64,000 nucleotides of DNA from Branchiostoma floridae (taxonomy: Eukaryota; Chordata; Leptocardii; Amphioxiformes; Branchiostomatidae). The stretch is from NCBI RefSeq assembly GCF_000003815.2, contig NC_049994.1:9335148-9399147 (forward strand), in the 5' to 3' direction. The notes below the pieces were generated by a model. That model saw only the letters and a program-made list of their open reading frames with translations, was not told the DNA's origin and made no database searches. This document shows positions 45,601 to 51,600 of this stretch, piece by piece. Position 1 is the first letter of the stretch, and each line of letters starts with the position of its first letter. Made by a program: the position numbers and the translations under genes.

Positions 45601-48600
45601 GTCAACTTAGAAAATAATTTGTAGGTGTCAAGTCAAGAGTGTAGTTATTGTAACAAGCTTATACAAGTCATATTTCTCCTTGCAGGTACCTACATGTTTT
45701 TGGAGACTTCTGCCCCCCGTCAGCCAGACGACAGAGCTAAGTTGGTCAGTGAGGTCTTCCCTGCCACCAGCAGCAATGGGCAATGTCTCAGGTACGTCTA
45801 AACAAACAAACATCAAGCCAGTTTGGGTTCCTAAAATCCTAATCATCTTCTGGTTGTAACAAGAAGGACAGGAGTTATTGCCGTGCCACTACATACAAGC
45901 AAATTCTCCTACCGTTTTATGTGTGTGTGTATGTGTATGTGTATGTTTGCTAGATTTGCATTTTCATGATTTGGCATTGCATGTTTGGCACCAGCATTGG
46001 TTTGCAGAATTGTGTGACTACACTGACCATACATGTATGTGTGTGTGTATGTGTTTGTGTGTTAATACATGTACGTGTACTGGTACCACATGTATACCAG
46101 CAGCATAGGTTTGCAGTATTGTACATGGCTTGACTGACATGTGTGTGGCATTGTAATTGTTTCTTAGGATGGTAACATTATGACTAGACTGACCATGTGT
46201 TGCATGTTTTGTGTTCACAGGTTCTGGTACCACATGTATGGCAACAGCATTGGTAGGCTAACCGTGTGGGTCATGGTTGGAGGCAACATCCGTTCTATCT
46301 GGGAGCTGTCTGGAGACCAGGGCAACGGTTGGAACAACGGACAGGTCAACATAAGGAGTAGTGACAGCTACAGGGTCAGTCTTTTTAGGCACCTGAAATA
46401 TTGTTTTAGCCATCTGTGGCATATAATAGGCCATTCTGTAACTTTTTGAAAGCTGTCAATTATTAGCCTGAAGTTAGTTACCAGACATTTTGTGCCAATT
46501 TTTCACAAGGTTGGAGTGAAAACTTGCATCTTACTCTGTTTACTCCCCTGAAACTTTGTGCACCAATGTACAGATATTCCTCAAAGATGTTCCTTCAGGT
46601 GTATTAACCCTACATGTAGGATGGTGATAAAATAGCTGTCTGCAATCTGTCCTTAGGTTATCTTTGAGGGTGTTCGTGGTAACTCCTTCCAAGGAGACAT
46701 CTCCCTTGATGACATAACCTTCAGCACAGGACCATGTGGTGGTAAGTACTGGATTTCATTTATGGGCTGATAGTGGTGCTACATTTTCAGATGGAAAACA
46801 ACTCCATAGGTTGCTGATCATGAGTGACAGCCTGAGAATAATGTAGTTCTGTTGGTTTATTATGTCTCTGTCATGAAAAGTTGGAATACAACTGGAGCAA
46901 ATGCCTTTAGGATGGCAAGTAATACCAAAGCTAGTTTAGACAAATGAAAATGTTCAATGTATTAACCCTATGCTGTATGACATGTTTGTTTGTACTAGTG
47001 ATGCCCCCAGAGGCACGACCACAAGGTCCAACCACACAGAACCCAATAGGACCTGTGACTACTACAACTCCTGGCCCATCTCAAGGTTTGTCTGCATGTG
47101 TTACCTGTACTTCAAGGGGAAATTTTCATATTTCATAGCACATACCATATCATTTTACTAGTAACATTGAATACGTCTCTAGTGTGTAACGCACCAAAGG
47201 AGCCCATTGTAGCAGACTGTAGATCCCACTGTAGCAGACTGTATCTACAGTCTGCTATAGTGGGCTGACTACTCTCCCATGGCAGGCAGAGGCCAAATTG
47301 CAAGCACCTTGTAAACAGTTGGTGGTGCTTAATTGTAAGGGTCTGTAGTAGCAGCCTGTGAAAATTGCCTAGTCACCTAAATATGACAGTAATTGTCCCA
47401 ACTGCTACAGCACCATTGAACTAAAAGGATAAGAAATCTAATGTATCAACTGCATTCTCAGAAATACAAATCATATATCCATCTGCCCCCACACCATGTG
47501 CCTGCAAAGTTGGTGTGTTTTGTCATGGGGTTACAATGGCTATGAAGATTTATATGTAGATTCAAGTGCACGAAAATGTAACCATATTACATGATTGTAT
47601 GTTCTCCAGCACCCAGTGCCTGGGACTGTACATTTGAGACAGGACTGTGTCAGTACCAGCAGGCAACTGATGATGAGTTTGACTGGACCAGGCAGACTGG
47701 CTCCACTGGTACAGGTGACACAGGACCCTCTACAGACCACACACTTGGAGTTGGTAAGCTTTCTGTTTGGTGTTTAATATGATGGAAAGGTCCTTAAAAG
47801 ATGGCAAGAAGTGACATAAATAGATTGTGAGTGAGTGAGCAAGCAAGCGTGTAAACAAGCGTGTGAACGAGTGAGTGGGATGTTGGATGGTTGACTGTCA
47901 GTTAGTTCAGGAGCAAGAAGACTATGTTTTACCTTGCGCCCTCTGGACGTCGTAAGTCCAGAAAAAGGGTCGACCTAGGTATTTTAATCTTTCATCTTGT
48001 ATTTGTATGTCTAATTCTAAGGCTCAATAAAGATGATTCTGACCCCCCTAGATAAGTGTACAGTCATAGTCATTTTGATATTTCTGAAGGTCATCTTAAA
48101 GACTTCCAAAAGATGTCATCTATAATATTAACTCAAAATAGCCTTAAGAATGAGTTAGTGGCACTGAATTTGATTTAGTAACTTTATCTTATTCATTTCA
48201 TTTCACACCAGTTTGCGAGAGCCGCTCCACTCCAGACCGCTACCTGTACATGTGGGACCTTCCCCAGCTCACACAATCGCGGTTCTACTTCTCTGTGATG
48301 GGAAACAATGATGCCCACATTGCACTGTCCGGTCAGAACCAAGACCTGGACGACATGTATGAGATTGTGATTGGAGGATGGGGGAACACGCAGTCTGTCA
48401 TTAGAAGATCTAAACAGGGAGCAAACCAGGCTACGGCACCAACCCCAGGAATATTGTCAGCAACTGAATTTAGGTAATACACTTTGAGCTGTGTATTTTG
48501 ATATCTTGGCCATGATATGGGTGTTATGCACCGGTCTTTATTCTATAATATAAAATTGGAAAAGTAATTCTTTCTTCATTTTTAAACCAGTGAGGCTTCA

Positions 48601-51600
48601 TAATTGCTACTTTGATTTATGTTCCAGAAAATTCTGGATCTCCCACCTTGCTGACGGCACAATCCAAGTTGGACGTTATGGAGAACAACTCCCCTTCATG
48701 GAATGGACCGACCCTAATAAGCTTGACATCAATTTTGTGGGCTATTCCTCTGGATGGGGGGTAGCAGCTGAATGGAAGTTCTGTGACCTTGGTATGCCAT
48801 TTATGACCTTCAAGTATTTTTGTACCGTCATTGTAATTTAGATTTGCTAAAAAATGCAGGCTCAAAATATGCTGTTATTTCAGGGGAAAAATGATGCTGA
48901 AAATTATAAGATATTTTATGTATGTATTATGTATGCAAAATATTTTTACATGTGTTAATTATCCTTTGGCTGGGGTTTGCTAGAGATCAAGGTCTATTTG
49001 TGTGTGATAATATGATCCATTGTAACAAAACTTGTAATATTGCAACCCTGCAGCTAATGGTTACTACTTGTACATCGAGACATCGGACCCTGTTCAAAAT
49101 GATGACAAAGCCCGGATAGAGAGTGCCACCCACCCACCTACTGTTGGCCAGGGCAAGTGCCTGACCTTCTACTACCACATGTACGGAACTAACGTCAACA
49201 CCTTGAACCTGTACCTGAAGAGTGGAGGGGCCCTGGGCAATCCCATCTGGACTCGGTCTGGCACTTTGGGTGATGAATGGAGAAGAGCTCATGTCTCCAT
49301 TGTCAAGGACAGCAACTTCCAGGTCAGAGAACATTTAATATATTGTGCAGAAATAGTTTTCAATACTTTTGAAGTATTTCATAAACAGACTTGTATGGTT
49401 CATGGCTTTATGGTACTATAACACTACTTTCAGCACCATGGTCAGTAGACACCTGATGTAATACTGCATGCAGTTGAACTGGTATTTAGAATAAACTGAA
49501 GAAAAAAGGAGCACTGTGTTATCTTGATGAAGGTGCCTTTTATCCTGGCTGTTAAAAGGATCTACCATTATCATTCTTTAATGGGAAAATGATTGGACAC
49601 ACAGTACTGTTGAAACATGCAAGTAACAGATCAGAAATACATGATATACTACAACCACAGGATGTTGTCCCAGTTAACTTGTCATCTCTTTCATTTGCTT
49701 TTATGAATGAATTTCAAAGCACTTCTGAGTGAATTATTGATAGTGATTCAATGTTCTTTATTGTAGATGTTACATTGTCCTATGATGTTACTTCCAGATA
49801 ACATTTGAAGGAGTACGTGGCACAAGTTTCCGTGGAGACATTGCTATAGATGACATCATGCTTGCAGATGGACCTTGCACATGTAAGTAGTGTTTGTACA
49901 CCATCTAATTGTATAGAGGATATCATTCTATTGGATATCATTATATTGCATAATTACTGTCAAATGTGTAATGTCAAATAGTTTCAATTTCCATACCCTC
50001 AAGCACCAGAGTTGTCAAGCCAGGATTAAAATGTTCCAAAAATTAATTCTTACTTAGAACTTCATGTACATGTGTCATAGAATAGAAGTTTTTGCCAGAA
50101 ACTGTATAGGAACCCTCATTAAATACAGTACTGATTGAGATATAGTATACATCGAGTCGCGTTCGTATCGCGTTTCTGTCGCGTCGATTACGCGTCTCCG
50201 TCGCGACAGAGTTTTATTGGAGTCGCGTTACAGTTAAACTCTGACGCGTTCGGGTTTACCAGACGCAGAGTTAATGAGATGGGGTCAAATTTCATGTTTG
50301 TTTTACCAGCCTTTAAAACAATGGGGACCTGACACCTTGAAGGATGTCATGTGGCGACGGCTCCACCTGTCTCTTTCGTGCTACCCTCTGCGAGGAAAAC
50401 ATAGCGGGGGACGAGAAGCGGGATAGTGGGGCGGGTTAACTTCGGGCGCCGATGGGGTGAGGGATCGGGCCGGTAGCAAGTCGGGCGCGCCGACTCACGG
50501 GGTCTGCAATGCCACAAAAGAACTTGCAAATCTTGCCACCATCGGCGTACCATAAATACGTGTCGGTATTTTATTGCATAAAAGTATGGGATATGCTTAT
50601 TTTCTTCCATAATTTGGGGGGGGGCATTCTGCAAGACGACAAAATGCTATCTAAAACGGTCGGGAGACTTGTGTTTCAGGTTGGACTCTTCTCGGTGCAC
50701 GTCGCAAATGGGTGTGCTTGGTGAGCTCACGAGATTCGCCGCAATGTTCGGTGACAAGATGAATATTTCCTTACGGGGAGGAAAGACAACAGAGTCATTT
50801 TTCGCGCGAAATAACAAAATTATGTGAAAACATCGTACATAATTGATTAAATTTGCTAAACCAGGGCATGGGATAAAAAAAATTGGATCCATGCCTTTGT
50901 AAATGTACATTTTTAGTATCAGTTTATCCAAATTATAAATTCTTTTAGAATTTAGAGATCGTTTCTACTCGGACATGTCAGACATCCGGCGCGGTAGTGC
51001 TGTCAAAATTGATTGATTTAGTCGCCGCCGGCCTGGCACATATGATACTAGATCAAAGGACCGCCGCCCACTACAACTTGGATGTAGCGAACTTCTGACG
51101 TTCTGTACTGGAATGCATTCCCACGATTTAGGGGACGTTCTTATAGTGACAGCTGGGGACAATCTTATAAAGAAATGTCAAATAATTTCTTTTTTCAACA
51201 GATAAGTAATTTGGCCAGCTTCCTTGGAACATATAGCAACATCTAACAACCGTTATGGAATATCTAAGTTGGTATTTATTTTTACTTCAATGAACTTTAA
51301 CGAGAACAATCACCCCATACGAGACGTTTCCCCCATGTTATAATAGGATGTTCCAATAGTTACTGGTACCGGCTACGCTCAGTTCTCGAAGTTTTTACAG
51401 CGGGCGGCGTACTAGTAAGTTTTCGGTGCTAGATGTGGTGTAGCATTGTGGTGAAAGTCTTGATTTGGTGACGTGTTTTGAGACGTTGTTAGAGAGCCGG
51501 AAAACACCGCCACAGAAGTACAAGTTTTGTTGATCGATTGGTAAAATTTCATTCAAACAGTACCTGACTAAAGTATGACCGAGGACTTTGGCACAAAGCA

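Follow-up and report, generated by a model that had tools for sequence, protein, structure and literature searches.

We analyzed a stretch of 64,000 nucleotides (nt) of the Branchiostoma floridae genome (contig NC_049994.1, positions 9,335,148 to 9,399,147; hereafter the window, with positions counted from its first letter), which holds part of a long tandem array of MAM domains, and we focused on one of these domains, M24, which is interrupted by two exons of another family, PF12248 (Methyltransf_FA, or FAMeT). With MAM exon profiles built in this analysis and applied to the window extended by 20 kb on its upstream side and by 100 kb on its downstream side, we found 73 MAM A exons over 184 kb, the listed matches all being on the + strand. 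Twenty-eight of these A exons lie in the window, where the array spans positions 1110 to 63554. Re-reading of the DNA showed that M24 is a single MAM domain made of exons A, B, and C, with the two exons of the PF12248 cassette located between A and B, as follows (all on the + strand).

47610 to 47753, +: M24 exon A, encoding the N-terminal portion of the MAM domain with two cysteines; acceptor ccag before 47610, donor gtaagc after 47753, leaving in phase 1.
47754 to 48211, +: upstream intron, phase 1, 458 nt.
48212 to 48473, +: cassette exon 1, PF12248; entered in phase 1 and left in phase 2; acceptor ccag before 48212, donor gtaata after 48473.
48474 to 48627, +: internal intron of the cassette, phase 2, 154 nt.
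48628 to 48791, +: cassette exon 2, the remainder of PF12248; entered in phase 2 and left in phase 1; acceptor ccag before 48628, donor gtatgc after 48791.
48792 to 49053, +: downstream intron, phase 1, 262 nt.
49054 to 49322, +: M24 exon B, encoding the MAM core with the third cysteine; acceptor gcag before 49054, entered in phase 1 and left in phase 0.
49798 to 49882, +: M24 exon C, encoding the end of the MAM domain with the fourth cysteine; entered in phase 0 and left in phase 1.

The cassette is 426 nt long with phases 1-2-1; its flanks are in the same phase and its length is a multiple of 3, which makes it symmetrical in the sense of exon shuffling. Its frame is open, and its four consensus splice sites are in matching phases. 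The coordinates, splice sites, phases, and length had been proposed by an earlier, sequence-only reading of this DNA, and all were recovered. The same reading had claimed that a symmetrical cassette with phase-1 outer introns places a FAMeT-like domain inside a MAM domain, and it had staked this claim beforehand on a profile match to the FAMeT family. In Pfam searches, the cassette taken alone indeed matched PF12248 (E value of 5.3e-43, 146.6 bits for a cutoff of 24.2, profile positions 15 to 136 of 140), and exons A, B, and C joined without the cassette gave one uninterrupted MAM domain (PF00629, 4e-44, 150.7 bits, profile positions 1 to 158). Both families were matched in the A-cassette-B-C chain, with the MAM domain split into two stretches (135.6 bits). 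The guest has 142 residues, compared to 165 for the form of M24 that skips it, and the aligned row of M24 contains all four MAM cysteines. In the rest of the window, the cassette profile found nothing else of note (next best E value of 0.58). The A-to-B spacing of M24 is 1300 nt, versus a median of 479.5 nt for the 28 domains of the window, and only M1 has a longer one (4553 nt).

We then examined the host. A phase-1 donor with a fitting acceptor was readable at the A-B intron of 28/28 window domains, so the landing site for the cassette existed beforehand. The similarity between MAM domains (M1 to M41) peaks at lags of 3, 6, 9, and 12, which indicates that the array grew by a three-MAM unit. 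Both halves of M24 (A on the one hand, B+C on the other) fall in the class expected at its place in the array, and its neighbors appear, by eye, to be in register. M30, a domain of the same class located just outside the window, is the nearest relative of M24 by B+C and the second nearest by A; the two have the motif CQYQQ in common, and the A-B intron of M30 (290 nt, phase 1) is without a cassette. Given the three-MAM period, the common class of both halves, and the empty site of M30, the cassette appears to have entered one intact MAM domain, which argues against a fusion of two MAM halves and agrees with the earlier proposal of shuffling into the middle of a domain. Host conservation was evaluated on the 64 domains that are complete, with the 9 incomplete ones among the 73 set aside, at the 37 columns conserved at ≥85%. 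M24 has no departure at these columns, as is the case for 15/64 domains, M24 included. The suggestion that M24 is relaxed or the most divergent domain is hence unsupported, and its C-Q-Y signature is common to M30.

Searches of the B. floridae genome listed 123 PF12248 exon matches, from which we read 30 PF12248 loci (L021 to L050, including L024, that of M24) with flanks of about 1 to 1.5 kb. Nesting of PF12248 in a MAM domain was seen once among these 30 loci: strong MAM exon matches were present only at M24, and L032 showed a single weak and partial MAM match on the opposite strand (E value of 0.0097). A second PF12248 domain of the same array, about 38 kb downstream (L011; 87790 to 88659 in window numbering), sits in an ordinary between-domain position, between M41 and M42, with an LDLa exon coming next (about 89028 to 89150). 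In the tree, this downstream domain groups with L043 (100/97) and not with M24. As a sister of the cassette it is disfavored, since the constraint costs 16 log units, with an approximately unbiased test value (p-AU) of 0.062, which is not a formal rejection; a constraint grouping M24, the downstream domain, and L043 is not rejected (p-AU of 0.30). The sets used for the tree and for the ratios of nonsynonymous to synonymous substitution rates (dN/dS, or omega) left out L031, L037, L042, and L046 (stop in the joined reading), L038 (site not found), and L025 (first exon truncated), and L021 to L024 were not joined.

The closest joined paralogues of the cassette are 62% identical to it (23 compared). 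The paralogue acceptor is in phase 1 at codon 79/80 in 27/27 second-exon rows counted, from 25 loci (L038 being unresolved and one further row of L037 uncounted), and the downstream PF12248 copy likewise has, by eye, an intron at this place; L021 to L023 matched in one piece, without it. The M24 cassette reads through codon 79/80, and its phase-2 intron sits 25 nt downstream at an AG/A proto-splice site, a point at which the exons of many paralogues have ...TACAG ahead of the same codons. The cassette thus differs in gene structure from the other copies with two exons in this genome; such a structure is not a family-defining feature. Its internal intron could result either from the loss of one intron and the gain of another or from a shift. 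Treated as a repeat, this internal intron had no other copy in the genome.

At 4.55 kb, the A-B intron of M1 is by far the longest of the 28. The three + frames of this intron (1249 to 5801) contained no Pfam domain at E ≤ 0.1, nor did the + frames of the long A-B intron of M50 (L013, 1547 to 3796), and no further Pfam domain was found at this threshold in the + frames of the regions around M24 (46738 to 47609 and 49883 to 55228). By eye, a GC-rich stretch at about 50160 to 50780 differs from its surroundings; it lies in the gap after M24, the next MAM exon being at 55228. The intron upstream of the cassette holds a dispersed repeat (47923 to 48050) that resembles, by eye, the 3' end of a retroposon. 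It has at least 39 other copies. As these are up to 100% identical, the repeat appears to be young and says nothing about the arrival of the cassette.

We then analyzed the guest domain. The cassette has cysteines at positions 1 (its first full codon) and 139 (near its end) and no further cysteine, and both terminal columns hold a cysteine in 18/24 PF12248 domains; we infer that Cys1 and Cys139 form a disulfide. The A-B link that the cassette interrupts is only 1 to 4 residues long in 28/28 window MAM domains, and the ends of the cassette should therefore lie close together. A sequence search for solved relatives of the cassette returned a single match, at chance level (E value of 0.6). PF12248 relatives are also carried by two loci of prokaryote genomes (L051 and L052), both of them metagenome-assembled genomes (MAGs) in which mis-binning is possible. 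The protein at 2443 to 3702 of L051, from a bacterial MAG, consists of DM9 repeats and a PF12248 part, and the model of the latter (predicted local distance difference test score [pLDDT] of 74.9, predicted template modeling score [pTM] of 0.75) is made of beta strands except for one short helix. The best 50 Foldseek matches listed for this model have galectin or GRIFIN titles, apart from one CRD-SAT, which we take to be a galectin derivative. After re-alignment of the Foldseek top 1000 with VIA-align 2, the 50 matches listed were galectins, Charcot-Leyden protein (galectin-10), or GRIFIN. Identity to the L051 model is 8 to 14% among the matches listed.

On the basis of this model, the cassette is predicted to adopt a galectin-like beta-sandwich. 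The ends of a galectin chain lie close together, so that this fold would suit insertion into a short loop. Because the bacterial PF12248 relative is predicted to be galectin-like, a sugar- or microbe-binding module seems likelier than a methyltransferase, and with galectins as the top structural matches of the model, the family name FAMeT or Methyltransf_FA may mislead as to function. A PF12248-family protein from oyster is described as microbe binding in the title of its reference entry, and this title, combined with the galectin-like model, suggests the role of a nested lectin-like module.

We propose, with a probability of about 0.64, that the A-B intron of M24 contains a shuffled PF12248 cassette that is mostly or always included and is displayed as a galectin-like side branch, a probable binder of glycans or microbes. 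The cassette, an autonomous PF12248 unit of two exons with both flanks in phase 1, would have entered the existing phase-1 A-B intron by exon shuffling, and most or all transcripts would read A-cassette-B-C. The MAM beta-sandwich would still be built from A, B, and C with its own four cysteines, and the guest, a galectin-like beta-sandwich whose adjacent ends would be clamped by the terminal cysteine pair, would branch off from the short A-B connection. It would most likely bind glycans or microbes and perform no methyl transfer.

Several observations weigh against this proposal. By exon A alone, the nearest relative of M24 is not M30 (0.714) but a domain (0.719) that precedes the window by 8.4 kb, and this A-nearest domain ranks 6th by B+C (median of 7 over 64). 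A comparison of M24 A with its own B+C is a weak test (own correlation of 0.60, with higher values in M21 and M30, 2/63). The kinship of M30 with M24 is thus good, though not exclusive. When scored on Pfam match states, M24 (133.1 bits) comes 8th among 10 domains (range, 119.0 to 154.7); together with the absence of departures at the 37 columns, this makes M24 apparently neither the best-scoring nor a degraded domain among the MAMs compared. Most splice sites in the gene are stronger than those around the cassette. The protein modeled as galectin-like is a relative encoded on bacterial MAG contigs; its model was obtained from an alignment of two sequences (L051 and L052) and has a moderate pLDDT. 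Finally, comparison of the cassette with L027, L029, L030, and the downstream copy gave dN values of 0.34 to 0.45, dS values of 2.8 to 4.1, and omega values of 0.09 to 0.13, but omega reached 0.31 versus L048_1 and dS was not computable in the other 18/23 comparisons. Moreover, dS is saturated and omega integrates over all the time elapsed since the paralogues diverged, including that before insertion, so it does not separately measure selection on the cassette since then.

A less probable explanation, which we nevertheless take seriously, is that the cassette is alternatively spliced, yielding one form with an intact MAM domain and another in which the MAM domain displays the galectin-like domain, inclusion being a regulated ligand-binding switch. 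The frame is kept in both forms (426 nt, phases 1-1), both have clean domains, and the fully conserved MAM halves fit a form with an intact MAM. Splice-site scores, computed with a small home-made matrix and compared to sites assumed to be constitutive, also leave room for skipping: among the 28 A-exon donors, 5, 2, and 5 score below the donors of M24 A, cassette exon 1, and cassette exon 2, respectively, and among 54 acceptors, only 7 score below that of exon B, which is weak for the gene, and 19 and 15 score below those of the cassette exons. In a ranking of all donors, those of the cassette look weaker, as the C-end donors were picked there by score. However, all these scores are within the range of the presumed constitutive sites, the same introns contain unused GT and AG sites with equal or higher scores (the best donor, at 47870, has 7.83), and the weak A donor is common to both forms and does not single out skipping. 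Splice-site strength is therefore suggestive at most; it appears to permit skipping and proves nothing. In the boldest version of this scenario, which we consider doubtful, regulated inclusion of the galectin-like module would convert one MAM of the array, otherwise a plain adhesion domain, into a carrier of a lectin.

It is quite improbable that the cassette is a relic that is never spliced in or an assembly artefact. This copy of the cassette is the only one in its own genome, and selection since insertion is not shown apart from the older history of the paralogues, but the open frame and the phase-matched set of four consensus splice sites speak against a relic, and the 19.2-Mb contig has no N gap at this place. 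A PF12248 domain does occur between M41 and M42, yet the origin of M24 by the joining of an A exon to B and C exons that belonged to a different MAM, through deletions around such a between-MAM PF12248 domain, is very hard to credit, as it requires two deletions with correct ends, and as both halves of M24 share a three-MAM class and are close to M30, its neighbors look in register, and the downstream domain groups away from M24 in the tree. We give equally little credence to an included cassette that leaves the MAM domain unfolded, with A and B-C as tolerated leftovers in a redundant array: 73 MAM A exons could bear the loss of one, but M24 retains all 37 strongly conserved columns and its four cysteines and has a higher match-state Pfam score than the uninterrupted M27 and M30.

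We compared the proposed nested module with known systems. The array presumably resembles MALRD1-type MAM/LDLa proteins in its tandem MAM domains and in the LDLa exon present downstream, and it stands apart by the number of its MAM A exons in 184 kb. The galectin carbohydrate recognition domain has the fold predicted for the bacterial PF12248 relative, and the M24 guest would be secreted and probably disulfide clamped. The closest known system is the integrin alpha-I (vWA) domain, which is inserted into the alpha beta-propeller between its blades 2 and 3 (PMC3192720). There too, a complete domain resides within an extracellular all-beta host, the alpha-I domain being ligand binding and the propeller still folding, and the timing is around the origin of chordates (PMC3192720). 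M24 differs in its host and guest and in that the host is one copy of a tandem array, so that uninterrupted sister MAMs adjoin it. Domain insertions are stated to occur in 20% of multidomain proteins, and M24 is like them in that one domain interrupts another and the guest is smaller than the host; neither MAM nor Methyltransf occurs as a term in the main text of that source (PMC13114784). CPAMD8 and mollusc proteins contain the same PF12248 family in extracellular or immune settings, with no MAM nesting in the passages concerned (PMC9363628, PMC9358689, PMC8194122, PMC6003135).

Domain-in-domain insertion is thus known as a kind, and the PF12248-in-MAM pairing is a real and unusual case, of which we found no report in the open-access literature. 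Exon shuffling mostly adds domains between domains, and here the guest is inside the host. The tandem array supplies rare evidence on such an event, namely, a near relative with an empty site (M30) and a repeat showing that the host was intact. If M24 does carry a splice-controlled nested lectin, the neighboring sister MAMs, dozens of which are uninterrupted, would serve as internal controls. For the PF12248 family, which bears the name of an enzyme, the model points to a galectin-like and possibly sugar-binding role.

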